A DNA stretch of 64,000 nt from Haliotis asinina (lineage: Eukaryota; Mollusca; Gastropoda; Lepetellida; Haliotidae). Location: assembly GCF_037392515.1 (NCBI RefSeq), contig NC_090295.1, forward strand, positions 18,053,501 through 18,117,500, in the 5' to 3' direction. Below are positions 13,254 to 60,229 of the stretch, piece by piece. Position 1 is the stretch's first letter. Each line of letters starts with the position of its first letter. The notes under the pieces are model-generated. The model had not been told where the DNA came from and did not search any database. It was given only the letters and a program-made list of their open reading frames with translations. The position numbers and the translations under genes were made by a program.

Positions 13254-16200
13254 TCAACGAAAAAGAGTCACAGAAAACAAAATGGCTGCCACGAGAAAGC
13301 TCGAGACTGTAATGGCGGCACTTCCGCCTTTTGTGTTATCCCCGCCGCCTGGAATTTCCTTAGTGACAATATGAGGTTTCTCGGGTGTAGTGACAACTGG
13401 TCTGGGAGTGGTGTGCATTGTGGGTGGGGTAGTGGCCGCCTGGCACATCTGTCGAAGACCTGCCTGGAATGATGGCTCCTGAAGACAAGGCTGGGGGAGA
13501 ATGGTACACTCAGCTTGGTTCCTCAGATTTGTCTCGGAAGCCGCACATGTTCCCCTGAAGGCCTGGAGCTCGCAGTTCACCTGGCTTAGTCGCACTCTGT
13601 ATAAAAGAAATCATATTATAGACACAATGAAAAGAAAGCGATTTTTATTCCTTTAGGTATATTATTTACAGAAACGTTTAATAACACAAAAAACGCAGGA
13701 TAATTTCGACAATTCTTCCACAGTGTACCTTTGGCAAGGGCAAAGTCAGAGTTGTAGTGTTGGAAAACTATTTGCTGGCTAATTTAATTTGTAGATAAAC
13801 CGTTAGGGTTCGTGAACATCTCAGTTATATGTGAGTGAGTGAATTTTGTTTTACGCCGAGTCTGGACCAGACAATCCAGTGAGTAACAGCATGAGTATCG
13901 ACCTGTGCAATTTGGAAACGATGACATGTGTCAACCAAGTCAGCGAGCCTGACCATCCGATTCCGTTAGTTGCATCTTACCACAAACATAGTCGCCTTTT
14001 ATGGCAAGCTTGGGTTACCGAAGGCCTGTTCTATCCAGGACCTTCACTGATCTCCGGGTTATATGTAAGTTTTGTTCCGATTTTGCATGTTCTTCTGGAA
14101 ATCAGGATGCACTCGCCATTGTATGTGATAGTGATTCATTCATTAAACTTGGATCACAATAACACAAAGAACTCGAGTGAGTGAGTTTAGTTTTACGCCG
14201 CTTAGCAATATTCCAGCAATATCACGGCGGACGCCAGAAATGGGCTTCACACACTGTACCCATGTTCGGAATCGAACCCGGTCATCAGCGTGACAAGCGA
14301 GCGCTTTAACCACTAGGCTACCCTATTTTGATTATGGGTGAGGTTCGAAACGTATATTTTTGCATTCCATGCAAGATTCTAATTTTATGGTTAGTGACTG
14401 AGAACAAGTGAAAGAGTAAGCAGTTTTACGCCGCTTTCAGCAATATTCCAGGCAGGGGACAACAGATATGGGTGAGGCTGAGAGTAATGACAAGATCAAC
14501 GCATACATACCCGCAGAGTCTGAGGACAAACTGTGATGGGGTTACAGATCCTGTTTCCATACGACCAATCACAACTTCTCTCAGTTGAGTGAAGGTCTGC
14601 TGTGCGCACGTGGCAATGCCTTGGTTTTGAGTGAAGAAACACTGGAAGGCACTCAGATAGGCTGAAAAACACATGTGACATTTAGTGAGTGAGTGAGTGA
14701 GTTTAGTTTTACGCCACACTCAGCAATATTCCAATATGGCGACCCGCGTCAACCCGACAGTATCTTATTGTCATCTATTTTGCAATCTTTTGCTTGGTTT
14801 CGGGCTATCATTTTATTCGGAACCAATAACTTCCAGGCATATCCTAGCTCGACTGGCTAGCAAAATGTGTAAACTGTTTCACTCACTCACTCACTCACTC
14901 AAACACTCACTCACCCATTCACACCCTCAAGATTTAGACAACGGCAAAAACCGTCAAAGCATGTTGACATCCACAATATTGCAACGATAAATTCCATACG
15001 CCTTTGTGAAGGCTGGGTTGCTGATTTGAATGACGATAAAACATTTAACTCACTGTCTCTTTCTCTGCACAGGAGATTGGCAGTTCTCTCCATAGCCACA
15101 ATATCGATGCCCATCTCATACAATCTGGGTAGAGTAGTGGGACAGCTCTGTCCGACTTGCTTTAAACACGTAAACAACTGCTGACGAACTCTGAAAAATA
15201 ACATTATTTCATCTATTAAACATTCTTTACGCCAGTAAATAGCATTTATAACCAGCAAGCATCCAGGACTTAGTCCATGTTTACACTTTTTTGTATAGTG
15301 GTATATTTGATGAATGAGTATGTAGTGAACTACGCGAGTGTTAGAGAAATACAATGCTATACACTGTTTCAGTTGATGAATTATAATTTCTCTCTAGCTC
15401 GAAGTATGTAAAAATTTACACTGTCTCTGAAACGGCCCCTCCAAATCCGAAAGTATCCCCAAACAGAACGTTCAACAAATCCTACCTACTGACACATTCT
15501 TTTAATATCGCTTAACAGAGCCTTCCATACTTCACCAGTCTGTGGTACAGACAGCGAGAGCAGACATACGGCATTACACTGGGGTTACAAAAGAAGTGGG
15601 CGTTGAATATTTTCCACATTCAACATCCACGAGTTTTGTGATCTATTTGATTCAACCAGGACGGAAAAAAGTGTGATCCATGATGAAAAGCGGACGATGC
15701 CGAATGCAACCCAAACGAAACGGAGATTACTCTGCCACGACTTTCTAGATGAAAGAAACAGTTGAAATATTACATAAAAAATAATACTTATCCCCAGGAT
15801 ACGGAAACTGAATTTCAATTGTCAACAAACCCGGTGTTTTGTTTGACTGATATGTTTGGATAGAAACTGCTTGAATGGAATTATGATTTTAACTTAAGAT
15901 ATCGTGGTAGAAACGGAGTGAGTGAGTTTAGTTTTCGCCACACTCAGCAATATTCCAGCTATATGACAGCGGTCAGTAAATAATCGAGTCTAGACCAGAC
16001 AATCCAGTGATCAACAATATGAGCATCGATCTGCGCAATTGGGAACCGATGACATGTGTCAACCAAGTCAGCGAGTCTGACCACCCGATCCCGTTAGTGG
16101 CCTCTTACGACAAGCATAGTCACCTTTTATGGCAAGCATGGGTTGCTGAAGGCCTATTCTACCCCGGACCTTTCTGACGTCACTATCGTTGAACAACATG

Positions 16201-19200
16201 GTTTGGTTACACAGCACTCGTTCTATAAGCTTCAAGTGGTTACGGAACGCCTGTTTCAAATGACCACCATTATCTCATAAAGTTCCACTTGTGGTTGTTA
16301 AAACACAGGAGGTAAAACACATACCCGCAGAAGCGCTCTGTTTCGGCGCTAGTGTTGCCAATGAAGGAGAACTTGTCCCCTGTCATGGAGGTGTTCAGAG
16401 TTCTGTCTGGGTTGATCTGGGCTGACACAAAACACCCAGACAAACTTTGCATCGCGTTCCTTTCACAAGCTGAAGCAGAAAATATCAGCTGCAAATCACC
16501 CACTTTCAGTTTTGAGTGAATAAGGTTCGCGTCTCTTTTAGCAATATTACAATAACATCATAGTAGTGGGGTACAAGAAATGGGCTTCATGCACTGTACT
16601 GTCAAAACATTAGACATCTCATAATATTTCTTGTTTTGCATTAGACTGCTAACTCTATCACTCCCGATTTGTGAAACTGTGTATCTCGTGTAAACATTTC
16701 ATAATTATCCATTTTTAATTTATTGACCAGTTTCTTGATTAAACATCTTTTAAAATATCTATTTTCTTTTGATTACTATCAAAATAATATGCATTTTGTA
16801 ATATAGACCCCGGGCTTAAGTATGGTTAAAAATATTTCGGTGATTTTCAGTATTTAAGCCAGGGGTTTAAATACCGGAATTCCCTGTATCTGGCACTTAC
16901 GCTCCATGCAGAGTTGTTCTAGAATCATCAAGAGTGATCTCCCGCTTGTATCAATCATGGTGACTTCATCTGCAGTGCATGTTGCATTGGTGAACTGGGC
17001 CTTCAGTTGTAATACACAGGGGATAATGAAATCCAGATCGGCCGGCCTACAAGGAAAACATTTCTGTATTAATACATCTGCCCAAATACATTACAGTGAC
17101 GCAAAAGGCTAAATGAAAATCAACTGGAACACCCAATAGCATTGACAAGTGAGGCGATGCAGTCAGGAGAATCAAAACTATGAGCGCTTCGTTACACAGT
17201 CGCAGCTCGCCGAAACTGTTACGGGTTCGTTCACCCAAAGGATGGTAGCGTTACGATTGTCATAAATGTCTGAACGCTGCGATCGCTTTGTGAAATTGTG
17301 CCATTGTGCTCGTTTCACGTACGCTACGACACACTCGCCCCTTTCCGTAACCGCTATTCGGCTTGTTCCGGAATAAGACGAGTTGGTCACGAAAGGCTAC
17401 GACAGTCCTAACTCAACGATAAAGTATGGGAGTTACGATTTTGCTTGTCAGGTACAATGCGACGCTCTTGGTACTGTGTGTAAAGCTGAGACGAAAACGT
17501 AGTGGTTTTAGGGTTACCCAAAATTTTGTTCTTTTAAGTGGTAGTCCCCTTCAAAAGTTGTAACTCCACTGAAGTGAGACGATATTTTCTCTAATCACAT
17601 TTTTAAAAACTTGCTAAGGACAAAAATTGGAATTGCATGCGCGTTTTGTTTTATCTCACCAAGTTGTAGAACCAGAAATCAGACAGAACCAAGGGAAAGG
17701 TTGAAGTTTGGTTCATCATGTTTTCTCACGATTCGATTACTTACAGAACGCCATCATATAGCTGGAATATTGCTGAGTGTGGCGTAAGATTAAACTCACT
17801 TACCCACTCATCCTGTTTTCAATCCTTGATTCCTTTTCAGTTATGTAAACTTTATAAACTTTATTTAAATCCCGGCCACCAGTACACCCAATACACTGTA
17901 TGTATTTGGTATGTATCTGTTTGGGGTGTTGTTACATACCTGCAGACTTTCGTCCTGTAGGCGGGGACAGTTTCCCCGGGGGGTAGACTCCCGGATACGT
18001 TCTGGGTGATGAGAAACAACACTCCCTGGAAGTCCAGCCCCCTCGGGTCAAAACATCGTGGACTGAGTTGCTGGTCAAAGCTCTGCATACATTGGCCGCC
18101 CTGGGGTGGTTGCTGCTGAGCTAATACGATAGACACCAGGGATATGGCGACTGAAAAATAGAATGAATTAAAACAACTATTTATTTAACTGTATATATAT
18201 ACAGCAAACGTCCATTTCTTAAATGTCAAGGGGCGGTGTGGTAGCCTAGTGGTTAAAGCGTTCGCTCGTCACGCCGAAGACCCGGGTTCGATTACCCACA
18301 TGGGTATAATGTGTGAGGCCATTTTCTGGTGTCCCCCGCCGTGATATCGCTGCAATATTGCTAAAAGCGGCGTAAAACGAAACTCACTCACTCTTAAGTG
18401 TCAAAGAAACTGCGATGGAACTTCATCTGTCATTCAATCAGGACTGTCACATGACACCATCAAAACGTCATCCACTGTTTCATTTCAGATAGCTTCAGCT
18501 TATTTACAGACTATAATATGTACTATTTTTAACGGTTAAGTAAACTAATGTCCCCAAATTCTAGGAATCACAGTTAACGAAAATATGTTACTAAGGAATA
18601 GTTAAACTGAAACACCGGGGACCACAAATGATTTCATCGTAACCAAACCCGATGGGTACTGGGTTTATCTCAGGAAGCAAGCGTTAAATGTCTGTATATT
18701 AAAACCACTGGTTAAACAGAATCCATGACGGTTGCCAGGTTTATCGCGTTGAAATTTTAATTACATTACAGATTACAATATTTCGTAATATTTCCTCCCA
18801 TTTAACATTGCAATATGATAATTTCTGTGTGATTGCCTGTGTAAACAAATTCCAAATTATTCCTTTCACTCATAAATTGTCGAACGGTAATTTTTAGATA
18901 TTGTTTTTACATTTTGATTATTTTTTTCAAGCAATATGTACATTTAATTATTTCTGGTGGCTAGGTTCTCTTCAGAATACTTTCATATTCATGTCAATAT
19001 GCGACAATTCTACAAGTGGCAAAAATATGCGTTACAAAATAGGGCGTTGATGCTTATACAGTAAGTCGTCTTTATGGTGAGAATCAATTTGTCTACTCCG
19101 TATTAATTACATGTGTAATCATGCCCCCCAGCAATCTATCAGCATGATCAACGATGTTGCCCCTGGCCACTTAACCCGGTAGTGCGTTCAATGTGCAAGG

Positions 19201-21273
19201 ATGTCGTGACGTCGCGACAGGACAAGCAATGAGTAGGCAAATTTTAAATTTTCAGATTTTTTTTAAAGTTTAGTTTTAATTTCTAACAAACCTGAAGTAA
19301 TACGGAACTATTTCAAAAGGAAAAACTAACCTTAAACTGATATTGTTTTTATAAAATACGAAAGTGAAGAAATGGAGGACACAGTTGACTCGAGTGAGTG
19401 AGTGAGTTAAATTTGAACGGTATTTCAAACAAAGGCCGGTAGCGTAGTTGAGGGGTAAAGCGTTTGATCGTCACGATGATGCCTGGGTTCGATTCCCACA
19501 TGGGTAAAGTGAGGCCCATTTCTGGTGTTCCTCGCCGTGATATTGCTGGAACATTTCTATAAGTGACGTAAAATCATACTTATTGAATTGATGCCGGTCT
19601 CAGGCGTCTATGTGTGAAATGACTGGAACATTGCCAGTTATGCCGTAAGACCATGTTTACTCACTCACAGAGGATGAGTGTCACAAGTGTCTTGTTTTGC
19701 CAGGACAGGAATCACAAACCAGGACGAATGAGGAAAACTAGACCCAAAGGTAACAGGATCCTGACTAGCCTAAGGGACGCGACTCTTCACAACGATATGT
19801 GCCCACCCTTTCCCCAACATGATCAAGAACAGGAATGAGAACATTACCATGCGTATTTTAGGATATGTTCATTCGAAAACATTTTTTGGTCTAAATAGTT
19901 GTCCATGTTCTTGAAAATCCATTTTGTCCAAATAGGTTTGTTCATGTTCTTGAAAAATTAGTTTAGTCCAGTATTTGTTCATCTTCTTTAAAATTCGTCT
20001 TGTTCATGTTCTTGAAAATTCGCTTTGTCCAAATAGTTTTGTTCATGATCATAAAAATTTAGTTTTGTCCAATATTTGTTCACGCTCTTGAAAATTCGTT
20101 TAGTTCATGTTCTTGAAAATTCGTTTTATTCAAATAGGCTTGTTCATGTTCTCAAAAGAATAAATTTTTTCAGTATTTCCTTGTGTTCTTGAAAATCCGC
20201 TTTGTTAAAATAGTTTTGTTTATGTACTTAAAAATACGTTTAAGTTCAATTTTAACCCCGATTAACTTTTCATCTTGATTATTAAATAATATTAACGTAT
20301 ACATTATCCATGTCCTGGTGTCGTTAGGTATGCTTTTTATGTCATCATCGACATTAGATTTTCTGTATTTTCCAATTCCATACAGTTTTATGAACAGTGC
20401 TGACCACTGTTTGTAAGTACGTCGTCGGCGACTTCGAAATAGATAAGCATAATTCCTATTTGAAAAATATAGGAATTAAGTGGTCGCGTTGATATCATTC
20501 ATCAATGTAATTTCTCCGCGTAATATGGACTCTGAACCACCCGAACTAAAGATAGGAATGTACCCACTGTTAGTTTCTACAGCAAATGTCAAATCACCCC
20601 TGATCTGAATCACATATACACTGAATTCGAAAACTAACATAACTAAGATTAATAAGATCATTAAGAAAAATGGTATAAATGTCATATCAATGCCTAATGC
20701 AGGTTACAGAGACAGAAGAAAGTCGATGGCATACAGTCTGTTATTTTCAATGTAGTTACCTTGTTTTAAACATTCGGAAATTTTCTGAACGATTGAAAGG
20801 TACTTATTTTTCGACAGTATGCAACATGTTCTGATGTCGTATCTAATCGCGACTCATAGTTGAATTCGTAAGCTCAGTGTTCTTCATGCTAATACTCAAT
20901 GCAGTTCAGTTCTTGAACAGAAGATATTTTTCAAGCAAGAAATTTACTCAAGACAAAAAAAGATACAGAAACTTAAAAGAACTTGATTAAACTTTCAAAC
21001 ACTCACATGAAGTCAGTAGTTTAGAAAATTACGTTACTTGTAGAAGTTATAGGAACATTCTATACGAAAAGAATGAGTTTATCAATGATAATGTTATTCA
21101 AAACTTTTGAGAATCCTAAAAGATAAGCCTCATTAAAGGATGTCACACTCAAACAGATTTTCACTCTCTAAATCCAAATACAAGATCCCAGGATACAGAC
21201 ACTGAATATGAAGCAAAATAAACTCGCTGTACTCACCAAGTGCAAATCCCAGAAATCCCATTGTCGTTTTCAT
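13254..21273 (-). CDS. Gene 1 of array: secreted, probably GPI-anchored Cys-rich three-module protein (389 aa)
   Basis: Function unknown. Exons: 21237-21273, 17940-18150, 16901-17046, 16325-16469, 15054-15190, 14511-14661 and 13254-13596 (37, 211, 146, 145, 137, 151 and 343 nt). Intron phases are 1,2,1,2,1,2 and the reading frame is continuous to the stop. The signal peptide runs MKTTMGFLGFALVAISLVSI across the first junction and ends at VLAQQQ. Each later exon carries a C-x(10-13)-C-x(23-35)-C-like set. N-glycosylation sequons include NVS, NAT and two NTS. Unlike its three paralogues it has a Thr/Pro-rich stalk (TTPPTMHTTPRPVVTTP) before a GGSAA-type site and the hydrophobic end FLVAAILFSVTLF. 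It is the most diverged copy and the leftmost of the array. The start was chosen because the upstream TATA box and the hydrophobic exon 2 continue this ATG in frame. Confidence 0.88.
13830..14049 (-). mobile_element. SINE-B copy with internal gap
   Basis: Tail (gtgagtgagtg, gttttacgcc) joined directly to gagtctggaccagacaatcc; the usual segment between them is missing. It lies downstream of exon 7's acceptor side, in intron 6 of gene 1. Confidence 0.85.
14173..14323 (-). mobile_element. SINE-A copy, full
   Basis: Reverse copy with tail gagtgagtgagtttagtttt, B box complement ggaatcgaaccc and A box complement ccactaggcta. Intron 6 of gene 1. Confidence 0.9.
14406..14475 (-). mobile_element. SINE-A 3' fragment
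   Basis: Tail and caatattccaggcaggggac only. It ends 36 nt from exon 6 of gene 1. Confidence 0.65.
14684..14733 (-). mobile_element. SINE-B tail fragment next to a splice acceptor
   Basis: Tail plus ttacgccacactcagcaata. In the transcript this pyrimidine-rich CACT run lies about 20 nt before the exon 6 acceptor of gene 1. Confidence 0.7.
14881..14925. repeat. (CACT)n microsatellite
   Basis: Isolated run of the SINE tail motif, probably left over from a decayed copy. Confidence 0.8.
15916..16175 (-). mobile_element. SINE-B copy, nearly full length
   Basis: All SINE-B landmarks are present in reverse: tail, caatattccagctatatgac, tctagaccagacaatccagt, gagcatcgatctgcgcaatt and ggcctattctaccccggacc. 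Intron 4 of gene 1. Confidence 0.9.
16526..16600 (-). mobile_element. Decayed SINE-A fragment
   Basis: Weak match: cttttagcaatattacaata and aatgggcttcatgcactgta. Confidence 0.5.
17709..17808 (+). mobile_element. SINE-B 3' fragment
   Basis: Contains catcatatagctggaatatt and gctgagtgtggcgtaagatt followed by an irregular CACT tail. Intron 2 of gene 1. Confidence 0.75.
18231..18394 (+). mobile_element. SINE-A copy, well preserved
   Basis: Near-consensus copy: gtggtagcctagtggttaaa, cacgccgaagacccgggttc, aaaagcggcgtaaaacgaaa and a CACT tail. Intron 1 of gene 1. Confidence 0.92.
19434..19581 (+). mobile_element. SINE-A copy, diverged
   Basis: Contains gtaaagcgtttgatcgtcac, ggttcgattcccacatgggt and cgccgtgatattgctggaac. 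A second tail-like piece follows to about 19668. Confidence 0.8.
19865..20246. repeat. Diverged tandem repeat of about 38 bp, roughly 10 copies
   Basis: Units share ttgttcatgttcttgaaaat followed by tcgttttgtccaaatag. Copies differ by many substitutions, so the array is old. Intron 1 of gene 1. Confidence 0.85.
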
Positions 21274-21285
21274 GATGATGTGCTT

Positions 21286-35400: not shown

Positions 35401-35434
35401 TTTCCACGTACTTACCAATTAGCACCCGCAGCAT
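29468..35434 (-). CDS. Gene 2 of array: secreted, probably GPI-anchored Cys-rich three-module protein (357 aa)
   Basis: Function unknown. Exons: 35416-35434, 33624-33819, 32848-32990, 32308-32449, 31238-31374, 30112-30259 and 29468-29756 (19, 196, 143, 142, 137, 148 and 289 nt), phases 1,2,1,2,1,2, continuous frame. The signal peptide MLRVLIALATVSVLSLVGAQ spans the first intron. Six Cys-bearing segments follow, with sequons NVT, NGT, NCS and NNS. The last exon opens RIRLDHVQCDLDAWK, nearly the same as in gene 3, and ends in a Gly/Ser-type stretch and a hydrophobic tail (SIVYIVLTWITFLHL), which fits a GPI-attachment signal. The tail carries one extra Cys. Exons 5 and 7 are closest to gene 3, so genes 2 and 3 look like the younger pair. 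No clear poly(A) signal was found close to the stop. Confidence 0.9.
30340..30541 (-). mobile_element. SINE-B copy, diverged
   Basis: Contains aatctatccagtgaaccaaa and aaaatgggttgctgaagaat. Intron 5 of gene 2. Confidence 0.65.
30890..31071 (+). mobile_element. SINE-B copy, diverged
   Basis: Contains taatcgtaagaggcaacaga, gatccatgctcatgttgccg and tggactctctgatccaaagt. A SINE-A copy follows at once. Confidence 0.7.
31071..31231 (+). mobile_element. SINE-A copy abutting exon 5 donor of gene 2
   Basis: Head ggtggttaaagcgttcgttg, body ttgatattgctggaatattg, tail CACT. It ends about 5 nt from the GT of the exon 5 donor (31236-31237). Confidence 0.88.
33538..33612 (+). mobile_element. SINE-B 3' fragment abutting exon 2 donor of gene 2
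   Basis: Contains tatgctcatgctgttgatca and attaccgagtgtgacgtcaa. It ends about 10 nt from the donor of exon 2. Confidence 0.65.
34036..34250 (+). mobile_element. SINE-B copy, tail lost
   Basis: Contains gactaacgggatcgggtact, aagatcgatgcttatgcgtt and ccgccacataactggaatat. Intron 1 of gene 2. Confidence 0.8.
34709..34770 (+). mobile_element. SINE-A head only
   Basis: ggggtagcctagtggttaca and ctccgaagaccctggttcga, cut off after the B box. A 5' fragment is unusual, since these copies normally lose the 5' end. Confidence 0.75.
34870..35080. repeat. Direct duplication, about 120 bp
   Basis: The segment with acttaagtcgctggttagtt and gtagtgtgtgtgcctgcaat occurs twice, 118-121 bp apart, slightly diverged. 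Intron 1 of gene 2. Confidence 0.9.
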
Positions 35435-39105: not shown

Positions 39106-39336
39106 CAACATATGTCATATCTGGGATTTCACTTTCTTAGTAAAGTACAAATTCTAGTACGTTTTTCGGTTGAGTCCCATCCGGGATTCGAACCCGCACC
39201 CTCAGAGTCAGGCACCTAATCGCCAGCACACAAAGTCAGCCGCCTAGCCCGCTCAGCCACCGCGACTTCCAACCGAAAAAAGTACTAGAATTTGTACTTT
39301 ACTAAGAAAGTGAAATCCCAGATATGACATATGTTG
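39106..39336. mobile_element. 231-bp element: 67-bp inverted arms around a tRNA-like core
   Basis: Left arm 39106-39172 and right arm 39270-39336 are inverted copies with one mismatch in 67. The 97-nt centre, read on the minus strand, carries ggtggctgagcgggc (A-box match) and ggttcgaatcc (B-box match), 3' of which ccgg closes a T-arm-like stem, as in a class II tRNA-derived sequence. The acceptor stem pairs only partly, so a working tRNA is unlikely. No target duplication is obvious. Near-perfect arms imply a recent origin or gene conversion. Confidence 0.85.
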
Positions 39337-42868: not shown

Positions 42869-45800
42869 TCAGTGATTAAAAATGGCGGCAATCAACACAA
42901 ACGGAAGTGTTGCCATGGATACGTAAGCGGAAGTTGCACCACCCCCGGGTCTTTTGTCTCGATTGAAGTTGTCGATGTGGCATATTTTATCGACGGTGCT
43001 CTTCAGGCTCTCTTTGCAGACATCCGGGAGGAGGTTGCACTCCAGCTCTGTCCTCAGGCCCAACACTGCTGGGCTACACGACTTGTGCTTCTTCCTACCC
43101 CAGGCGTCAAGGTCACAACCAACGTGATCCACACGAATCCTGAAATAAGTGATCACGGGTAATGATGCATAATAAGGTGCGCCTGTGATAAGTAATATAT
43201 GTATATTACTTCATGAATCAGCTCCACTGCATCGGGTAGTTTAGTAGTTAAAGCGTTCACTCGCATGGCGTAACTACCATATTGAGAAAAATGTCCAGGC
43301 TTACACATGATTGCCGCTAAAATGTTTGGGCAAGACTTCAGTACTATCTAAATATTAAGCATGGTAACCGATCGGACTTATACGAATAAACTGACGCGCT
43401 ACTCGCCGGGCTCGTCACGGTGAAGGCACGGGTTCGATTCCCCACATGGGTTTAGTGAGTGATCTGTCATCTGTCCCCGCCGTGATACTGCTGTAACATT
43501 GCTCAAAGTGCCATAAACTAAACTCACTCATTTGCTCAAATGGATGCGAAAAGGGTTTTGTTTATAAGCCGCCGTAGCATGACAGGGATTTCGTGAGGAA
43601 CTAGGCAATAATCAAATAAATACTTTTGTGTATAAATTGTGAGAGTCTACCAGGCCGGGGTCTGATTAGAGAATAGTGATTAGCAATTGTCTGATCAGTG
43701 ATTTTCCATGATTACTTCGTATATACTGAACAGCGAAAGAAACGCAAGTTTCGAAATTATGAAATCTCATAAAATTAAGCGTTTATGTTTATGTCTTCTA
43801 TGTAACAACTGGACAAAAACCAGTTCCGTTTCTTTTTTTTCAGTAGTATATACTATGGGGTTTCTAAATCAGAATAATTGTGACTGTTATTTCACCCTTT
43901 CCGCCCAATGGAAGCAGTTTCGGACGATAATCGAGAATGTTACTCTCAAGCTTTGATGTTTTATGTTGTCCCACAATGAAAGTCATAGAGTATTGTGAGA
44001 AGCCGTGGATATACATGTATATATGTATGTGCATTTGGATCTTACCTATATATACCATTCACAAAATGTAGGGGATATTAGACTTACACGCTTGATAAAA
44101 TGCAAATAATGAAACCGTGGAGGAAAATATCGATCACCATTTATTCCATTCCTTTGGAAATGTTTCATCTGTGTGGATATTACAAAACTGCTATGATATA
44201 TATTACTTTTTCTCGCATGCACTGGCATTGGCTAGTAGTATATTCGCAAAATGGAATGTCCCCTGCTATTTTATAGAGTATATATGTTTGTGCATCGGCA
44301 GTGCAGTGACTGAAGTTTGGATAACGCCGCGTTTAGCAATATTGTACCCGTGTGGGGAATTGAACGTTATAGGCTTCGGGTTGACGTGCGAACGCTTTAA
44401 CTCTTAATTTTCGCACATGTGTATGCAGTTGTATGCCTGTTTGCATCTCTTTGCATGTGCATGTAAATATGACTTACTGGCAGAATCTGTCCATAAACTG
44501 CTGCTCATCCAACCTCTCTTGCTGTGAGGCCACCATCAGCTGCACGGTGTCCTGGATCTGTGACTGTTGACATTGCAAAACTGATTCTGTCTGTTCAGCG
44601 AAGCAATCAATACCGATGAGGTACACTGCAAGACAACACAGAGAACATCGTAATGGAAAAGTGAGTGACTGTGATTTTACGCCGCTGTCAGCAGTATTCC
44701 AGCATCATCTCGGCAGACGGAAAAATTGGGCTACATTGTACCCATGTGGGGAATCGAACCCGGGTCTTTTCGGCGTGACGAGCGAACGTGATATTGCGTG
44801 TCTCCCACCGTGATATTGCTGGAACGACGTAAAAAACTAAAACTACTCACTCACTCAAATTACGATTGCCTCTTTTCAAGAACAACATGTCAGGGGTTTA
44901 CGTTTATTGGCTGGATGCTTTCATGACATGACGTCTTCAGGGGCAACAGTGATAAAACCCAAGAACAGAGAAACTCTTTGCCAATAAATCTTTCGGTTAT
45001 ATTTTCCTTCATAATAAGCGGACACCTTGTGTCATCATTGATTTTCAATTATTCGTTGATATCATTTTAAAGGATGTGTTTCCTTTCAGCTCTGGAGGAA
45101 TTTGATCTGATGTCAGTGAATACGGCGTAATGTTTCCGTTGAAGAGACATCTCGAGGACATGAAATGTGACCAGTCCAGTATGGGTGCATTACAAGCGGA
45201 AAATCGCTTTGGGTAAGCAAATGAATCGCTTATTTGGGGCTTGCAACAGCTCGACGCGTTTATCGCTCTTCCCAAAATGGCAGAGCCATTACCGTTTTTT
45301 CGTCTGGCACTAATAGAGAACGTAATAGGAGAGTCTCAATGACGAGTGATGAATTTACGATTGTTGGTTACTACATTGTACCTGTGGAACAAACTGAGGA
45401 TGCTGGAATGTAAGCTGTTTTTTGCCAATTTAACAGCCGAACAATTTTGATCAGCCTTCGAATTCAAACTTTCCTTAGCCGCCATTTTGGTTTGAGAACG
45501 AAGCAACATCATCCAGCGATTGATGCGACTGCAAGTGGCTGAAAGTTAGCACTCCGTTGTGAGGCGAATCGCTGTACATCGCTTGCAAGCGATTGTTTTT
45601 TTTTTGTCTGTCTGAGGATATACTTACGGTCAGTATGCTTGCACAAGACTCCCACACCTTTCTCCATGGAATCAATGTCCAGGCCAATAGCTCGCAGTAC
45701 AATTGGTGACTCCGGGCAGTCGTCTCGCCTCTTTTTCATACACGTGACAAGAGCGTCCTTGTTTCTGGAATGAGATTTACATAGCATTCCCGAACCATAA

Positions 45801-48800
45801 TACATATTTAAGCACTTTCAAACACGATCCGATCCCGAAACGACTGCCTCGTTTATGTAACTTCAACGGGGGAACAGACGTTTGTGAGTTTCCGTACGTT
45901 TGGTCTGCTGATCCTGCGGTCGAATCTCAAGCCAACCCTAATTGTGATCCTTGGTCAGCACTGTACACGTGCTGTACTTGTAACTTTTACGAGTTTTTGT
46001 TTTGTTTGCTTGTTGTTTGTTGTTTTACGCTCGCTCTCACAATATTCCAGCTATATGGCGGCGGTCTGTGAATAATCGAGTCTCGACCGGACAATCCAGT
46101 GGTCAACATCATGAGCACAGCTCGACGTAATTGAGATACGATTACATGTGTAAGCGCACCTGAACACCTAATCCCATTTGCCGCCTCTTAGAACAAGCAG
46201 TGTTGCCGAACATCAGATCAGTTTGAGAGCCACCGATTAGCTGTTCTACATCCTCATTTGATATGCGTTAATGAATGTTTAATATGTTAGAGTCAGAACC
46301 ACGTAAAGGACCCTCAGGTGAGATTTTTTACGATTAAAGAAACATTTTTGTCGCATTATTATGATTATCATTATTGGGATATTTATTTTAGTACTTTTTC
46401 CCCAGAAGAGTGAAATGCCTGCCACGTAAACAACCTTTGTGTGTTTGTGGTTATTATCCAAAGTAAGCAGAAACTCCATTATTTAACTTGAAGACTTTTC
46501 AAAAGCGTGTAAGAAAATTCCAATCAGGAAAATGATTCAATAGTGATAACGCCCTCACGAATAGATGCGTAAGTGACAGAATCACTGTATATATACTCTC
46601 CCCCAAAAGAAACGCACAATGAAAATTGCAGTGTCATGTAGCAATGAATTAAAACGTGATTCATTTTACAAAAGGGTTTGCACTGTTTATGAGTGCTGTG
46701 GTGTTTATGTCTTGAAACATCACACCAAAACGCACATCCGTAAAATAGCCTTATTTAGCCGCATGATTTCCAATTTCGGCGTGTAGTGTCACAGAATACA
46801 CAATTCACATGCAATGCTCGTGAAAGTTGGGGATCAGATAGTCTCAATGATGGGTATAAAAGGTTCATCGCTGTTTGTCGAGTATCCACTGTATTTGGAA
46901 TATTGTTGACGAATGCAAAATGCCACGTCTAAGTAAATTCAACCGTCATATCGCCACTGGTATCCTTGAAGCTGGTCATTATCAACGTGCAGTTGCCCGA
47001 CGCATGAATGTTCACCAAATAACCATTTCACGGCTCAGGAAGAGATGTCGCCGGCAGAATTCGGTAGCAGATGCCCCTCGTAGTGGGCGACCTCGAGCGA
47101 CCACTGCCGCGCAGGATCGCTACATCCGGGTACATCACCTGTGTCATCGAACAGCTACAACGACCAGTACCGCTCAACAAATACCCGGATTGAGGCGGCG
47201 TCCTGCACAGACCGTCGGGAACAGGATGGTTTACGTGCCAGAAGACCTTATTTTGGCCCTGTGCTTCGACAACAACATCGTGGACATCGAGGTGAATCGT
47301 GCATCAATGTTCAGGTCTGGAACCTACCGAATTGGCGTAGAATCAGGTTCAGTGATGAATCACGATTTCTACTGGAACGACGCAATGGAAGTATGTACAG
47401 ACGTCGATGTGAGCATTTCGCCGACGATTGCGTTCCCCAGGTGGATAGATTCGACTAGGGAAGTGGTATGATGTGGGGAAGGATCACCTGTCGTTCGAGA
47501 AGTGATTTGGTGATGATCCAGGGCAACCTGATTGCTGAAAGGTACTGTGACGAAATCCCACGCCCATCCCTCCTTCCAATCTTTGGTCGCCAGAGGGAGT
47601 TGTTTCAACAGGACAATGCCACACACAGCACATCACACTAGAGACTTTCTCCAGAACCACAACATCAGTGTGCTCCCCTTTCCCTCAAGATCACAGGGCT
47701 TAAAATCGATCGAACAGTTGTGGGATGCCCTGGACAGACGGTTACGACGTCGTAGCCCTCAGCCCCAGACACTTCAGCAACTTGCACATGCACTACAGAC
47801 AGAGTGGGCTGCGATTGGGCAACAAGATGTTTCAAAATAAACAGTTGAAATTCCTATATGCGTTTCTTTTTTGGGGGTATATTTTGACCTTTTAATTTGC
47901 GTTTTTAGCAGGCTCATGTATCCCTATTGAAGGAAAAATATTGGAAATAACTGTAAAATAGTCATCAATAGACTTCCGTTGGCCTTACTTCCTGACACCT
48001 AGACTTAAGCTGCAATCCAAGTCACTCACTCACAAATTCACCTCAATCCTCAGTCGCTACAACTGACTGACAGACTATGGAAGGTGAGGCATTAAAAAGT
48101 GTCAACATCATCACCGTCATTTGAAGTAAAATGAGTTACTCACTTGCAGAATGTCTCGGCCTGGTCATCTGTCGTCCCGATTACAGCGCCACGCCCCATT
48201 GTGGAATTGGACAGGAATAACTCCGGGTCAAGATGGGACTCAGTGTAACAATTTCGTAAGTCTGTTGTAAGCGTTTGGCGACAAGCTGTGAATAGTCAAA
48301 AACACAAGTAAGATACTGTAAATAAAAAAAACCATTTTATAGCTTGCAGAATCGCGTCAATAGTTTGCAGAAATACTTCTGCAGTGCGCAGAAACATTTC
48401 CAAAGTTTGCAGAAATACTTCTACAGTTTGCAGAAGTGATTTCTTTCAAATGAATTATTGAAAAAAAGTACTGACCTGAAAAAGGACACAGGGAAACAGT
48501 TCAGTGGTACATTCATAAAGCCATGAAATATAAACTTGAATGAAACAATTTACTGTTGTGCAGGAATATGTCGAATCATGATACTAAGCATTTTGGAAGC
48601 TGACGAGATGGACACTTTAACATAGATTCTTGCTTGACGACAATATTAGAATTTATGGCGAAACATCGCCTGTACAGAATAAGGAAATTGTATATTCGTA
48701 AAAGAATTGTCCTCATTCTTCACGATGCTACTTCTTGAGGTTAATTCTGCAATTCAATGTTGAAGAAATAACCATTATATGGTACTTACGATGAGCACAA

Positions 48801-51369
48801 ATTTGATCAAAAGACCCAAACAAAGCCCGGAACTGCCGGTCAATGAGTGGACGCTGGTCTTCGGACTGAGTCTGGCTGGGACTGCACATTGAGGCATTGA
48901 TCAGCTCTCTCATGAACACGATGCTGCACTTGACAAGTTCTTCTTGTCGACTGAAATTAACACCATCCGTTCAGATTGGGTGATACAAGCTGTAACAAAA
49001 CACTTCAAGCTCCGTTGTTGTGACCTGCAGTCAATCTTCTGCACGTTACAGTTATCAATTGTTGAAGTAAAGTAAAGCTGATTACAGCTGAAGTTTTTGT
49101 GGCTTTGGTTGTGACATTCAGCTCCAGATTTTCCTCAGTCTACACTTCTTTTCTCTCCCAAGTTTGCCTTTGAGGACATCATATTTTACATGTTTCACGT
49201 TGCAACAAAATTCTGAAATTTTATTATATCTTTTTTTGTTTGTTTGTTTGTTTTTTGCGGGTGGGGTTGTGTCGGCAATAAAATCAGAATGATGGGTCGA
49301 GCGATAGCACAGAAAATAAACATTCTGATGTAATGCAGACGTTCTGTGGTTTGCCTATATTCCTAAGTATGCATAGAGTGCGCGATGGCCATGAACTGTC
49401 CTAAATACACTGGCTGTTTCATCCTCCTTTACCATCACTTTATACATGAAAATGTTGCGTTGCTGAGCTCCAAGAATATGACAATATCAATGGACTCAAT
49501 AAGGAGAATTTGGATTTAATCATAGTGATAGTGATCTGTGCAGAAGACATCCAGGATAATAACCATCCTCTTTGTTATGAACATGGCAAAATGTATTTAA
49601 TGACAAATACAAGCAGGACCTATAAAAGCGCCCTGCATCACGCCTACTGTTTCCAAGAAATAATTCTAACAACTCATTGATAATGTTTTAACACAACAGA
49701 CTAGCTACCAATACTTGTGCGAATAACAGCATCAAGACATACCACCGTATAACTTTGGACTTTCGGAACTTTGAATTACAATTTTAGACTGAATCCGACG
49801 TTGTGGAATAATTACGACTACCTAACTTTTACATGAACATTACTATTGAAATCCTCCAACTCTAGGTGGGAAGAGGTTGCAGTTACTGTCTAGAGACTAC
49901 CAGTGTTTCCAAAACCTTTCACTGAAATCCATGGCAGCTGCCTTATGATCCGTGTTATTTGATTGGCTGTTGGACATCATTTGTGGAACGATTTTTACTA
50001 CTTTTCCCTGACCAGTTTCATTTTGTACACACTGTAAAAATCTTGGCAGAATCAAGATGTATATTTAGTCCATTTGTTTTGTTGTCCTTTATATTTTCCG
50101 CTTGAAGTTTTGACGTTTTGGGAATGATTGCCAGGAGGAAAGTAGGTCCAAGCAATAACTCACTGATAAGCAATGGTTAGCCAGGGATATATCGTTTCCT
50201 TATTATTTCTAATAATTACTAGTATAATGCTAAAGATGTCCATCACTTAGGCGATAATGAAGTTGATGATGAAAATTATGATAACTTCGGTCTCTTAGTG
50301 CTCACCCACCTGCCTGTGTATTGAATGTGTTTGGACAATGGTGCTGTTGATGACGATTATTTACCACCCTGTGCCACGATCACCCGACCCCTCCCTGTGC
50401 TTTGTTTTCCAAGTGCTCACCCACCTGCCTGTGTATTGAATGTGTTTGGGCAGTGATACTGTTGATGACGATTATTTACCACCCTGTGCCACGATCACCC
50501 GACCCCTCCCTGTGCTTTGTTTTCCAAGTACTCACCCACAAGCCTGTGTTTTGAATGTGTGTGGATCAGTGTTGTTAGGGGCTTGACCATTGGTTCTGTT
50601 GGTGACCAGCCAGAGAAAGTTGTTTACGTCCATGTTGCTGTGTCCAACACAGGCATACAGCCGCTGTAGGAAGGTCTGCTGACAGGTGGTCATTCCAGTG
50701 GACTGACCAGTTGCCATGGAGATGAGTGTCAAAACAACACAACCTATACGGCGATTGTAAAATTAAGAAAGTCATGTTGGTGCATTATGATTTGAAACAA
50801 ATGTTATACAAAATGATATTCACGTTGTAAGTGAAATCTCCTGTGGGACTACTGTTATGGTGGAAACTTCCGTTCTTCTGGGAAAACGTGTGAGATTATC
50901 GGCCTGGAGGCATCTCTATCGTTTTCATGCGCTTAGCACATTTTCTTGAAAACGCTTTACTGTTATACACAAACTATAGATACACTAACTGATAGTGATC
51001 ATGATAATGAATGTGATGTTAAAATGTGAAAGACCATCAACAGGGTTAAATTATGGTATATTGCGCTTTCTTAAATTTCCGATTCCTTTGCTCCAAAGTG
51101 GAAAATATATATTTATGTACAAATATGTGTGAATATATTATCCCCGTGTGTTAAATAGACATTCTCAGAGTAAATAGATGTAAGATTTAAAGTCATTCAC
51201 ATGTGGAATATACCGGCATTCACACGTGAATAACAACAGTGCACCGGAAAGTTTTTCTAAAGTGTTTGAAATGTCCTCGTTACGATGACAACAATCGGCC
51301 ACAATATTCACAGAAAAAGCAAGTGGGAAAGGTCAAGCAGTTCTCACCGGTTATTAGTTTGGCCAACAT
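42869..51369 (-). CDS. Gene 3 of array: secreted, probably GPI-anchored Cys-rich three-module protein (362 aa)
   Basis: Function unknown. Exons: 51348-51369, 50536-50743, 48790-48950, 48144-48285, 45628-45764, 44478-44625 and 42869-43139 (22, 208, 161, 142, 137, 148 and 271 nt), phases 1,2,1,2,1,2, continuous frame. Exons 1, 2 and 5 have exactly the lengths found in gene 4. The signal peptide MLAKLITGCVVLTLISMATG spans intron 1. Exon 3 is 15 nt longer than in gene 4. Sequons NRT, NAS and NST. The last exon reads IRVDHVGCDLDAWGRKKH, keeps the Cys set, and ends in a PGGGATSA stretch with the hydrophobic tail MATLPFVLIAAIF, a good GPI-attachment signal. Intron 4 contains a Tc1-like transposon. 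Intron 2 has two partial copies of the end of exon 2. Confidence 0.9.
43225..43533 (+). mobile_element. SINE-A copy split by about 140 bp of other sequence
   Basis: Head cgggtagtttagtagttaaa to about 43270. The rest resumes at about 43411 (ctcgtcacggtgaaggcacg) and runs to the CACT tail at 43533. Intron 6 of gene 3. Confidence 0.7.
44305..44407 (-). mobile_element. SINE-A copy with internal deletion
   Basis: gccgcgtttagcaatatt joins directly to gtacccgtgtggggaattga; the central part is missing. Confidence 0.75.
44658..44857. mobile_element. SINE-A copy (minus) fused to an inverted 3' piece
   Basis: A reverse copy occupies 44658-44790 (tttacgccgctgtcagcagt, ggggaatcgaacccgggtct). From 44791 a forward piece (ccaccgtgatattgctggaa plus tail) follows. 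Just upstream of the exon 6 acceptor side of gene 3. Confidence 0.75.
46019..46215 (-). mobile_element. SINE-B copy, diverged
   Basis: Contains aatattccagctatatggcg, accggacaatccagtggtca and cctaatcccatttgccgcct. Intron 4 of gene 3. Confidence 0.8.
46593..47882 (+). mobile_element. Tc1/mariner-like DNA transposon with recognisable ends
   Basis: About 1.29 kb, flanked by TA. The left end tactctcccccaaaagaaac and the right end (reversed, ataccccc..aaaagaaacgc) are inverted repeats of about 25-30 bp. The transposase starts at the ATG at 46920 (MPRLSKFNRHIATGILEAGH), with a helix-turn-helix, GRPRATT and QDRYIRV. After a frame change near 47220 come RRPYFGPVL and FSDESRFLL (catalytic Asp), then MMWGRITCRSRSD and FQQDNATH (second Asp). 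At least one frame change and two stops, so inactive. TATA-like ggtataaaagg lies at about 46854-46864. It lies antisense in intron 4 of gene 3. Confidence 0.9.
48335..48440. repeat. Short tandem repeat with tttgcagaaatacttct units
   Basis: Four or five imperfect units of about 25 bp in intron 3 of gene 3, just before exon 4. Each carries a ctgcag/tgcag word. Confidence 0.7.
50298..50575. repeat. 115-bp tandem duplication including the end of exon 2 (gene 3)
   Basis: Copies start at 50298 and 50413, and a third partial one at 50528 overlaps the true end of exon 2. Each copy carries the last part of exon 2 and its donor region (gctcacccacctgcctgtgt against ctcacccacaagcctgtgtt). Confidence 0.92.
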
Positions 51370-53865: not shown

Positions 53866-53869
53866 GTTT

Positions 53870-55493: not shown

Positions 55494-55564
55494 TTGAGTG
55501 AGTGAGTGAGTGGGTGTGTGGGTGGATGTGTGGGTGAGTGAGTGAGTGAGTGAGTGAGTGAGTG
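55494..55564. repeat. (GTGA)n microsatellite
   Basis: Same motif as the SINE tail in reverse orientation; no SINE body is attached. Confidence 0.9.
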
Positions 55565-55825
55565 TAATTTCAGTCATATCAGGACATGTCAGCTGAGTGT
55601 AAAGCCAAAAGTGGAATATGGGTTTTGACCTGTTCGTAAATCATTATTATCAAGGCAAACTACTTTTGAAGTCAACTCAGCAGTGCGACATGTGGGGTTA
55701 AAAAGACAGCAGCATTCTTTTCCCCTTAGGTAGAGATGGTCACAAAAGATCCAAACATTTTTTTGTGTCAGCCGATTTTCTGACACGTATAAAATTCACA
55801 ATTCGTTTATGAACAAAATATTCTT

Positions 55826-55831
55826 TTTATT
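55826..55831 (-). terminator. Candidate poly(A) signal of gene 4
   Basis: Minus-strand AATAAA about 320 nt after the gene 4 stop. Confidence 0.4.
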
Positions 55832-56146
55832 CAAAAATAGCTCAACACTAACGAAACCATATTTACATGTATTGCATATGCGCGGCATCAATTCAAACAG
55901 GATTTGGTTATGCACAAGAATATTTCATTTTCCTCGATTTACGAAAACAACTGAAGCCTTTGGGGAGCAATGAGACATGAACCTATGTACAGCAATGGGT
56001 AGACGATCCTGGATAGCGGTAAAATATTATGATAAAACCGAATAAAGGGAGAATTAAATTCTTCATGGCCGTCATACTCCACTTGTCTATCAACGATGAT
56101 CAACTTCATCAGATTTCGGGCCAGATCTGGTGGATTTTCTTGAAAT

Positions 56147-59100
56147 TTACTCGGCTGAGAAAATGGCGGCCATGACCAAGATGGCGAGGGTCGACCACGT
56201 GACCATTACGACTCCAGCGCTTGCGTACCGTTCACGTTCGTCGAGGTGGAAGTTCATTGGGTTGCAGAGTCTTTGGTACAGCTGCGGGTGGGTCTGCATG
56301 CAGAGACTAGGGAGGATCTTACACTCTAATTCGTTCCTCAGTCCAATGACGGCTTTGTCACATCTGTCGTGCTGACGGCGGGCCCAGGCTCCCAACTCAC
56401 AATCAACCTGCTGGAGACGAACGCTGGAAAGGAGAAAGTATATTGTTAGTTTCTTCATCCACGGACCTAGCAACTGATGACTATCAAATGATGAGGTTTC
56501 ACGAGAATGCCCATCAATACGATTGACCATAGTTCGTAACTTTTGTAACGTTGATACTTAAACTGTTGCACGAAGAGAAGGATCTATAACATCATATCAA
56601 AATAAAATTTCCTTGCTTTACGACAAAGTCATTCTATTTCACTGTATCTGAATTTACAAATGGGTCGTGTTTGGATTCAGTACAGCTGACGGATGTCTGT
56701 CTACAGGCAAGGTTGCGTTATATTCCCTGCCCTTGTAATATTAAAATTGGGGCATGATAAATTGTTTTCAAGCCATGAAAAAGATAATTTGTTCGAATGA
56801 ATATTTTAGATATATAACACCGTGTCAGACAAATATAGGCGCAAAGCCCGATATTACGTGTTTAGAGACCTTTAAAAGGAAATCCAAGAGCGCTGAAATA
56901 TTGCTGACAAGCCTAAGAACATAATCGTTCTGGTTGTGGGAGTCGAGCTGACGATCATAGCATTAAGGAAGGCGTGAGGTGCACAAGTCTGCACAAAGAA
57001 TTGTGACCTCTTGGAAGACTTTATTCCCAGTTTAGTTCAAGGTTACGGCTCCTAGCGCTATATAATTAAAAAATGTAAACCTATAGACGGGGACGCACCT
57101 GCAGGTCTGCAACTTGAACTGCTGCTCTGCCATGGTCTGTTGCAGGAGTAGCTTCATGTTCTGCATCTTCATGTTCCCGTCCTGGAGGCACATCTTCACC
57201 TCGGGGGTGGGGCTGGTGAAGCACCCAATACCGGCCAGGTAAACTGAAAGGGAACGTATCGTTGAATAATCCAGAAAAAGGACAATATTTAAAGACCATT
57301 TTGAGGGATATGATCTCAACTACGCTTCATGAAAAGCAGCGTACACCGTCCTTTCAGCAAAATGATTGCCATTGTTTTATCCAAGAAGACAGAGACCATT
57401 GTCGGCATTTATCAGTTATTGCCATATAAATTTATCCCATACTTGTTTAATTAAATTTACCAGATCTTTTGAATTTAGATCCACGTACAGTGAAAGCTGT
57501 CTAAAACGGCACTCATTGGGACTGAAGAAATAATCCGGTATAGAGCAAGTGAACGACTGTAGAGCTGATGGTAAACGTACAAGCCATGGATGGGGCTGAG
57601 ATTTTATCCCGCTGTTGACAACTTGCCGGATTGGACAAGTGCCGGTTTTGACAGCTTCTACTGTATGTTAAATTTTGTTTCATATATAACTGTTTTTCTG
57701 TTACAGTGAGTAATGAATCGAAAGAGATGAAATTAATGTTACCTCTTGGTGCCTGGCAGAGAGTCTCAATTCCCTTCTCCATTGACAGGATGTCCATTCC
57801 TATTCTGTAGAAGACGGTAGCGGCATCAGGACACATCTGGGACTTCTGACGAATGCACTGCATCAGCATCTGTCGGTTGCTGTGAGATAAAGGTCAAGGT
57901 GAACGTTTGCCATGGTAATTTGACAACTGTTTTTTTTAACGTCCAAATTAATAAAATCATACTTTTTGTCAGGAAGACAAAGTTAAAAAAGAAAACATTC
58001 AGGACGAAACTTAATACTTAGCACGAAGTGGCTAGAGAATTTCTCCTCGGAATAAAATGAATTTAATACGTTTTGGAACATCATGTGGTGTATTGAAAAA
58101 CACATTCCTACCTAATCCAGCCAACATGTGCAATGATATTGATATTGTACATACTTGCAAAATTTGAAGACTTGCTCTTCATTTGTGCCAATGACTGCTC
58201 CCTGTCCCCATGCTCCGTCAATGAAGGTCCTGGGGTCAAGGTTATTGTAACTGAAGCACTGACGGAGTTCATCCAGAAGGGTGTATCTGCAGGCTGAAAT
58301 AGATGACATTTTTTACCCTATAATTTTATTTTTCAAATGAACATTAGTTTATTCGTGTATATTTTTGATATAATGAAATGTTCTATTTTCATGTTCAATC
58401 GAGGGTAATAAAATATTTGTTTCTAGAATAAGCTAATGAACACGGTTCTACGGTTGGCTTTGGAATATCAAGAGAATCAAATATTTGCAGTTGCTCTTCA
58501 TTGTAATCACGGATTTATTTCAATTACTGACGTTTGTAAAAACAGGTTGTTTCAACAATAAAGGTATTTATTTCCAATCGATTCTGCCTTTAGCAGTGAT
58601 TATTTTTGTGAATGTATCAAGGGTTTTGTCGTTCTTATTAATGATGATGGAAAGTATTTTTGAAATACTCACGATGGGCACAAACCCTGTCGTATTCCCC
58701 AAATATATTCTTAGCCTTGAGCATCAGTTGTTGTTTATCCAAGGCGTTAATACAGAGGGAACTGTTGACCAGTCTTGACGAAACCAACTGACCACACTGG
58801 TCAATCTGTAGACGGAGGCTGCGGGTAAAGAATATTGTTTCTTGAGTGAGTGTTTGGTAAGGAATGATGCACTGGCAATATGTGAGGCATATTGCCGCAG
58901 GAAAGGAAATTCGAACTCGGATCCTCTGCGTGACGAGCGAGCACGTTAACGTCTACGCTACCTATCACCCTCGTCTTTCACCGTCATACCTAGATTGTCT
59001 CCCATTGCATGACTGCATATTTCGGCCTTATCAGAGTGATTGGCTTCTGGAATAAGAATCCGTTATATGGAACGAGGATAATGGAGTTTGGGATATGCAG

Positions 59101-60229
59101 CATGGCAGGTGTAACCAATTCGTGGGTTCCTATCAGTCGAAACGGGTAAGACAGAATCATGGTGTTGACAATTTAAGTATGGGAGAATTTTGTTCATGTT
59201 TCCCAGCACATAAATATGACCAACGGTTCGTATTTACAATGGGCATTAACACTTGACACCGACTTTTTATGATTTCTTGTTTGGACAAACATACTGGAAG
59301 TTCCTTGAGCATTGAAACATGCGCAGGTTCTCACAGCGTGAGTGAGTATGGTTTTAGACCGCTTTTAGCAATATTCCAGCGATATCACGGCGAGGAACAC
59401 CAGGCATGGGAATCGAACACGGGTCTTCGGCGTAACGAGCAAACGTTTTAACCACCAGGCTAACCCACAGCCCAAAATAGAAGTAAGACCTAAGGTCAAA
59501 GCACACATACTTGCAGGCTCGGAGCTGGAACTGTTGGATTCCTTCCGGTGGCATCTGGCCTGTGGTGCCATTGCTGGTGACGTAGGTCAGGTGGTTGAAG
59601 TTGATGGACCCGTTCTGGACACAACTCATCGCGCTGGCCAAGAAGGTTCTCTGACACTGGGTGGCCTGTTGGTTTTGTTGGCCCCAGACTTGTGACGTCA
59701 TGGCCAGAAGAACCACGGCTGGAAATGTAACGGGGAATTAGTGAGAAAATAGATGGGAGCGAATATTGTGTCTGTCTGGTAAAAGTGAGTGGACGAGTGT
59801 TGTTGTTTATATACATTCAAGAAGTATGATAATAAAGATGGTTTTCATAAATAGAATTATGAGTGGACTGGTATGTCGTTGCATCGTATTTAACAAGTAT
59901 TAAAAAGAAAAAAGCAGCTTTGGGGCACTTAACCCGTCTAACATAGCTTTCATTTGATGCATTCATTTTAAAACGGAGATAACATTTTTGCAGAATGTCT
60001 AGCTATTTTAAGAAATACATCATACTAGAATGATCTAGAATATGAAATTAATGTACCGTTAGTGAAATGTGTTTGATACTGTATGACATTGATATAAATA
60101 TAACGTGTAACCTTAAAAGACTGTTTTGTTAAAGACATTTAACTTGTTTGTCAACTTAACACATACTAGCAGACGAATAAGACCTTAAGTGTGTCAAATT
60201 CACTCACCAACTGCGAATCTGTAATCCAT
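56147..60229 (-). CDS. Gene 4 of array: secreted, probably GPI-anchored Cys-rich three-module protein (357 aa)
   Basis: Function unknown. The most compact member. Exons: 60208-60229, 59511-59718, 58673-58818, 58155-58293, 57743-57879, 57099-57243 and 56147-56423 (22, 208, 146, 139, 137, 145 and 277 nt), phases 1,2,1,2,1,2, continuous frame. The signal peptide MDYRFAVAVVLLAMTSQVWG spans intron 1. Cys spacings by exon are C-x10-C-x35-C, C-x13-C-x23-C, C-x10-C-x32-C, C-x7-C-x24-C and C-x10-C-x28-C. The last exon has five Cys. Sequons NGS, NGT and NSS. Exon 6 has a Met/Gln-rich helical stretch (MKMQNMKLLLQQTMAEQQ). After the last Cys come an acidic/basic linker, a YASAG site and the tail VVMVTWSTLAILVMAAIF, fitting GPI attachment. 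SINE-A copies sit in introns 1-2 close to exons 2 and 3. Confidence 0.92.
58842..58966 (-). mobile_element. SINE-A copy, decayed
   Basis: Contains ttgagtgagtgtttggtaag, gcgtgacgagcgagcacgtt and a weak B box. It starts 24 nt from exon 3 of gene 4, on its acceptor side. Confidence 0.7.
59336..59468 (-). mobile_element. SINE-A copy
   Basis: Contains gtgagtgagtatggttttag, gcaatattccagcgatatca and gtcttcggcgtaacgagcaa. It lies 42 nt from the donor of exon 2 of gene 4. Confidence 0.88.

Follow-up and report, generated by a model that had tools for sequence, protein, structure and literature searches.

Four paralogous genes arranged in tandem on the minus strand of a 64,000-nucleotide stretch from the abalone Haliotis asinina (NCBI RefSeq assembly GCF_037392515.1, contig NC_090295.1, positions 18,053,501 to 18,117,500; the whole stretch is hereafter called the window) appear to specify proteins in which a small cysteine-rich domain occurs three times in succession. 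The genes, designated A to D, extend from position 13254 of the window, the last base of the stop codon of gene A, to position 60229, the first base of the start codon of gene D. This three-domain internal repeat was missed in an earlier note on the same DNA. The array is best explained as an old tandem set of genes for glycosylphosphatidylinositol (GPI)-anchored, three-module binding or adhesion receptors, a reading that is regarded as moderately probable.

Domain Architecture

Each product consists of three tandem domains of about 90-105 residues, contributed by the exon pairs 2+3, 4+5, and 6+7. A phase-1 intron precedes domains 2 and 3, and the corresponding one for domain 1 falls inside the signal peptide, while in all 12 domains the codon directly after the third cysteine is split by a phase-2 intron. 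The spacing C-x10-C between Cys1 and Cys2 is found in 11 of the 12 domains, as is C-x8-C between Cys3 and Cys4, the exception to both being domain 1 of gene A, where the first spacing is C-x11-C. Six cysteines are invariant across the eight copies of domains 1 and 2 and across the four copies of domain 3, the latter adding two cysteines between Cys5 and Cys6 to reach eight. Altogether 20 extracellular cysteines are common to the four proteins; extra ones are found in the signal peptide of protein C and in the tail of protein B.

Profile-profile comparison of the domains gives scores of 24.9 (domains 1 and 2), 21.9 (domains 1 and 3), and 18.6 (domains 2 and 3). Among 150 column shuffles, 0, 0, and 1, respectively, attained these scores; with the cysteine columns kept fixed, the counts were 0, 0, and 2 of 150. 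Considering that the scores hold with fixed cysteine columns, the non-cysteine residues must carry the repeat signal too. A Chou-Fasman estimate gave a mixed strand and helix picture that is too weak to use.

Regarding the order of events, mean identity calculated without the shared cysteines is 25.8% for pairs of the same domain between genes (18 pairs) and 11.9% for pairs of different domains (48 pairs). Same-domain pairs do not always lie above different-domain pairs, the best of which reaches 18.3%: 15 of the 18 are above this value, and the remaining three all involve gene A. The greater likeness of same-domain pairs suggests that the triplication of the domain is most likely older than the gene duplications. 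Among genes B, C, and D, identity from Cys1 to the last cysteine, again without the shared cysteines, is 21-30% for domain 1, 28-44% for domain 2, and 31-39% for domain 3.

Gene Models

The four genes were rebuilt without the earlier exon list. Open frames of the minus strand were compared among themselves, and similar frames fell into six sets, gene A being weak or missing in some of them. Splice sites were then scored around each frame in the intron phases given by the earlier note, the first exon was sought upstream, and the products were joined. The rebuild yielded seven exons per gene, intron phases 1,2,1,2,1,2 in each, GT-AG borders in all 24 introns, and full-length open products of 389, 357, 362, and 357 residues for genes A to D, so that the gene plan, the product lengths, and the two end coordinates claimed in that note were all reproduced. 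Exon 5 measures 137 nucleotides in all four genes. Open models with GT-AG introns throughout rule out pseudogenes, and the array is an apparently intact old set of four genes.

Two parts of the models call for caution. For exon 3 of genes B and C, a weaker-scoring acceptor was picked because it keeps the conserved Cys4, a choice made on the basis of homology. Least secure of all is exon 1, which contributes only 19-37 coding bases; it was sought within 4.5 kb as an ATG followed by a phase-1 donor with a score above 2.5. Genes A and D each had a single donor above this threshold, and further ATG-donor combinations exist for gene B (four) and gene C (two). The donor chosen for gene B scores 4.3 against up to 5.7 for the alternatives and is not the best; it was retained because a short hydrophobic N-terminus results.

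Homology, Selection, and Copy Number

Whether the exon sets exceed chance was assessed by a leave-one-out procedure in which, for each gene, exons 2 to 7 were searched for with profiles built from the other three genes. The target comprised all reading frames of at least 22 residues in 264 kb (the window plus 100 kb on each side, including 2,500 bases of N). In 23 of 24 cases the profile matched the left-out exon best within its gene and placed it ahead of any off-family match, and in 22 of 24 the exon was recovered at an expectation value (E) below 0.01. Three exons count against the set: the profile of the other three genes failed to find exon 3 of gene A in this target, exon 6 of gene A was recovered at E 0.42 with the best off-family match at 0.69, and exon 3 of gene D at E 0.0098 with an off-family match at 0.028.

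In the six gene pairs, differences at codon positions 1, 2, and 3 amount to 0.51-0.62, 0.36-0.52, and 0.63-0.70, respectively. Third positions differ most and second positions least, and the frames therefore appear to be under selection on the protein. Taken with the leave-one-out recovery, this codon pattern excludes chance open frames as an explanation of the exon sets, exon 3 of gene A being without such support and exon 6 of the same gene having little. Protein identity is 24-27% between gene A and the others and 35-37% among B, C, and D, which makes gene A the most diverged of the four copies.

No fifth gene was found in the same 264 kb with profiles from all four copies, and the array therefore seems complete. 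The best off-family match of these full profiles, a frame of 28 residues at 68060-68143 (E 0.026), was rejected as a further copy and taken as chance. A genome search with 52 residues of exon 2 of gene A at E of at most 0.001 returned only the query itself and missed genes B to D, so that it is uninformative on distant paralogues.

Exon Coordinates

All exons lie on the minus strand of the window and share their contents between genes: exon 1 carries the start codon, exon 2 the signal peptide (in gene A, its remaining part) and Cys1-3 of domain 1, exon 3 Cys4-6 of domain 1, exons 4 and 5 Cys1-3 and Cys4-6 of domain 2, exon 6 Cys1-3 of domain 3, and exon 7 the last five cysteines of domain 3, the tail, and the stop codon. 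The E values below are those of the leave-one-out profiles.

In gene A, exon 1 (21237..21273) holds the first part of the signal peptide and consists of an ATG and a GTGAGT donor in phase 1; this is the sole donor above threshold in 4.5 kb, there are two in-frame ATGs, and the exon belongs to the weakest class. Exon 2 (17940..18150) was recovered at E 3.1e-06. Exon 3 (16901..17046), missed by the left-out profile, is defined only by its splice sites, frame, and cysteine pattern. It is followed by exon 4 (16325..16469, E 0.0016), exon 5 (15054..15190, E 1.2e-09), and exon 6 (14511..14661), whose recovery is the weak one given above. Exon 7 (13254..13596, E 1.2e-05) encodes, in addition, a Thr/Pro-rich stalk before the GPI-like tail.

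Gene B begins with exon 1 (35416..35434), an ATG with a GTAAGT donor, for which three of the four other ATG-donor combinations have higher donor scores. Exon 2 (33624..33819) was recovered at E 2.9e-11 and exon 3 (32848..32990), with its homology-based acceptor, at E 0.00011. The other exons of this gene are exon 4 (32308..32449, E 3.9e-10), exon 5 (31238..31374, E 3.8e-17), exon 6 (30112..30259, E 1.4e-10), and exon 7 (29468..29756, E 2e-23).

For gene C, exon 1 (51348..51369) is an ATG with a GTGAGA donor, and both of the other ATG-donor combinations have a lower donor score. Exon 2 (50536..50743, E 4e-13) is followed by exon 3 (48790..48950, E 3.4e-06), whose acceptor has a weak score of -1.3, and then by exon 4 (48144..48285, E 1.5e-15), exon 5 (45628..45764, E 6.2e-19), exon 6 (44478..44625, E 2.1e-07), and exon 7 (42869..43139, E 9.7e-24).

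Gene D has as exon 1 (60208..60229) an ATG with a GTGAGT donor, the sole combination above threshold in 4.5 kb. Exon 2 (59511..59718) was recovered at E 5.3e-13, and exon 3 (58673..58818) with the narrow lead over off-family matches already given. Recovery of the remaining exons gave E 5.7e-10 for exon 4 (58155..58293), E 9.1e-15 for exon 5 (57743..57879), E 1.6e-06 for exon 6 (57099..57243), and E 2.3e-23 for exon 7 (56147..56423).

Secretion and Membrane Anchoring

By eye, the four proteins all have a hydrophobic N-terminus, weakest in gene D, and a cleavage motif in which position -3 is A or V and a small residue at -1 is followed by Q. N-glycosylation motifs number 16 in the four proteins against 8.5 expected, and one of them, just before Cys5 of domain 1, is common to all four, which was matched in none of 2000 shuffles. 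At the other end, hydropathy and inspection by eye indicate a hydrophobic C-terminal stretch in all four that is not followed by a cluster of basic residues, although a single Arg closes the protein of gene A. These features point to proteins that are quite likely secreted and GPI-anchored.

Library Searches

The four whole proteins and the 12 separate domains were compared with Pfam, with matches listed at E up to 10, of which the HMMER filters drop most above about 0.1. No match above the cut-off was obtained, and within a scan no match was shared between paralogues. In particular, UPAR_LY6, GDNF (PF02351), and the saposin profile were absent from the matches of proteins and domains listed in this range. 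NCBIfam likewise gave no match above the cut-off for the four proteins, and the alignment of the four whole proteins had no match among Protein Data Bank (PDB) sequences. Neither this PDB search nor those with domains 1 and 2 together and with domain 3 gave a credible relative, and saposin-like or con-ikot-ikot chains were absent from their matches at E up to 10. Queries in the library scans were single sequences and small profiles.

Among the matches that were examined and rejected, the strongest was TNF ligand 13/13B in PDB with the profile of domains 1 and 2 (E 0.0016). The linked chain concerned holds the matching stretch twice, each at 9.4 bits and E 12, and single-copy chains give E 1.1-1.3; the match was taken as chance. 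LRRC51, matched in PDB by the domain 3 profile at E 1.6, is too weak. In Pfam, DUF842 (E 0.16 with a whole protein, 0.032 with a separate domain) is weak and limited to one paralogue or domain; DUF7356 and Polyoma_coat are weak matches of whole proteins, each in one paralogue only, and DUF6974 is a weak match of one separate domain only. The same is true in NCBIfam of YedA and primosomal protein N'', each found weakly in one paralogue only.

The putative family and its six-cysteine domain are therefore found in none of the libraries searched (Pfam, NCBIfam, and PDB sequences); nor was any paper in the literature searched recognized as describing this three-domain family. Relatives in other species probably exist. 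The earlier note had described the products as secreted, cysteine-rich proteins with GPI-like tails and of no recognized family: the 20 shared extracellular cysteines bear this out directly, the N-termini, cleavage motif, and shared glycosylation site fit predicted secretion, the hydrophobic ends fit GPI-like tails, and the profile search against Pfam that it had proposed as a check returned no family match for proteins or single domains.

Comparison with Known Systems

PLAUR has two exons per domain, and uPAR, its product, has a length of 335 residues compared with 357-389 in the array proteins. The PLAUR gene has seven exons and three homologous domains (PMC12563076). Typical Ly6 genes encode the signal peptide in exon 1 and the GPI signal in their final exon, and the LU domain adopts a three-finger beta fold with a particular disulfide pattern (PMC4839075). 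The array resembles uPAR/PLAUR in its seven exons, its three tandem homologous extracellular domains, and the position of the signal peptide first and the predicted GPI signal last. It differs from the LU disulfide pattern given there in having domains with six cysteines spaced C-x10-C...C-x8-C and without a UPAR_LY6 match. The PLAUR-like gene plan is a likeness of build, not proof of kinship.

The six cysteines of saposins include a C-x2-C spacing near the N-terminus, in contrast to the first spacing of C-x10-C in 11 of the 12 array domains and C-x11-C in one. Saposin-like conotoxins and con-ikot-ikot have phase-1 introns, and the study that described them reports that no convincing endogenous ancestor was identified (PMC10437998). 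Small disulfide-rich domains with phase-1 introns are a feature shared with the array, but all introns of these conotoxins are in phase 1 and the saposin-like class has ten cysteines (PMC10437998), whereas the array alternates phases 1 and 2. With intron phases and cysteine number in disagreement, the con-ikot-ikot and saposin-like conotoxins are judged unrelated. GFR-alpha combines several tandem cysteine-rich domains with a GPI anchor, a combination also predicted for the array, its domains bearing a characteristic set of ten cysteines (PMC3527400). Domains 1 and 2 of the array have six and domain 3 eight, there is no Pfam match, and kinship was rejected on the cysteine number.

Origin and Possible Function of the Array

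It can be proposed that the ancestor was a two-exon module with phase-1 introns on both sides, which would therefore have been able to duplicate in frame. This module would have been triplicated within one gene, and the whole gene then duplicated to give four strongly diverged paralogues. Each paralogue would be a secreted, N-glycosylated protein, GPI-anchored on the outer cell membrane and displaying three six-cysteine domains. By analogy with uPAR and GFR-alpha, these domains may form the ligand-binding ectodomain of a binding or adhesion co-receptor, in which domain 1, membrane-distal and more diverged, would tell the paralogues apart and domains 2 and 3 would be more constrained; this assignment is tentative, with the odds somewhat against it. 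Lower conservation of domain 1 than of domains 2 and 3 among B, C, and D would be expected if the partner differs between paralogues.

Several points weigh against a receptor array of this kind. Three domains with a GPI anchor are compatible with adhesion, matrix, and decoy proteins and do not prove a receptor. The tail may be membrane-spanning, or the protein released as a cleaved secreted form, instead of being GPI-anchored. The comparison of domains 2 and 3 is the weakest of the repeat comparisons, and the conservation gradient between domains is modest and may reflect mere relaxed constraint.

Other explanations have been considered, each of them rather improbable. Mucus, shell-matrix, and egg-coat roles are commonly filled by secreted proteins that are rich in cysteine, glycosylated, and tandem-duplicated, and the Thr/Pro-rich stalk before the tail of gene A would also suit secreted structural or protective proteins of this sort, in which the tail would be transient or cleaved and the disulfides would serve stability, not binding. 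A purely soluble protein would, however, not need the hydrophobic C-terminus that all four have retained at identities of only 24-37%, and no repetitive matrix-like segments were seen by eye in the four models. An innate immune or gamete recognition array, whose paralogues diversify toward different microbial or partner ligands, is judged no more probable. It would account for tandem copies that are strongly diverged, and somewhat more so in the membrane-distal domain, and about 16 kb beyond gene D there is an open frame resembling SAMD9, although one neighbor proves little; unlike fast-turnover immune arrays, the set comprises only four old copies, with no younger duplicate or fragment found within 100 kb.

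There is similarly little to recommend a far-diverged member of a known cysteine-rich family (GFR-alpha, saposin-like, or nematode DUF19-type) lying beyond the reach of profiles. Small tandem domains with paired cysteines would fit such a descent, and scans with single sequences and small profiles leave room for distant kinship. Against it, the spacing is without the C-x2-C of saposins, and Pfam, scanned to E 10 within the HMMER filters, lists nothing but unrelated weak matches. The cysteine number is also unlike the ten reported for GFR-alpha domains (PMC3527400).

Surroundings of the Array

Toward the start of the window, a lysine/arginine-rich frame occurs in three tandem copies on the minus strand (window -105 to 41, 492-674, and 1025-1210), 84-97% identical to a mixed sequence of two copies, with 39-bp tandem repeats nearby; the one copy compared with Pfam had no match at E up to 0.01. 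Satellite arrays are found at 4419-5091 (37-bp unit, 18 times) and at 60751-62912 (35-bp unit, 62 times), the latter beginning about 0.5 kb upstream of gene D. On the plus strand, pieces at 46860-47837 and 7682-8783 resemble, by eye, broken Tc1/mariner-type transposases; three such frames were compared, the first having weak helix-turn-helix matches below the cut-off and the other two none. The head of a dispersed repeat, which we take to be one from abalone (Haliotis) sequences, is present at 11 places in the window (two exact, nine with 1-3 mismatches; mean of 0 in shuffles), which hints at a vetigastropod without proving it. ARAGORN, run with the bacterial code, called a tRNA-Thr (TGT) at 39172-39266, which is probably a tRNA-like repeat, because Rfam gave no match at gathering score in the window.

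Beyond gene D, the SAMD9-like frame is a single open frame of 1430 residues on the minus strand (L003:2503-6792), with a PDB sequence match over residues 521-656 (E 1.3e-08) and no Pfam match at E up to 0.01. Farther out, at about 86.7-101 kb in window coordinates, long frames on both strands appear Polinton/Maverick-like by eye only (polymerase, integrase, ATPase, and capsid-like).

Significance

Undescribed tandem families are common in little-studied animal genomes, and the surprise is therefore moderate. The domain may, as a possibility on the unlikely side, represent a new extracellular family that reached the three-module GPI plan independently of uPAR and GFR-alpha and serves lineage-restricted recognition receptors, either immune or gametic. 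If this reading is confirmed, the array would add a domain family unseen in Pfam, NCBIfam, and PDB sequences, together with a GPI receptor plan whose three modules are unrelated to those known. With phase-1 introns on either side, the two-exon module offers a clear test of receptor origin by in-frame duplication of exon pairs, and expression and binding could readily be studied in the four paralogues.

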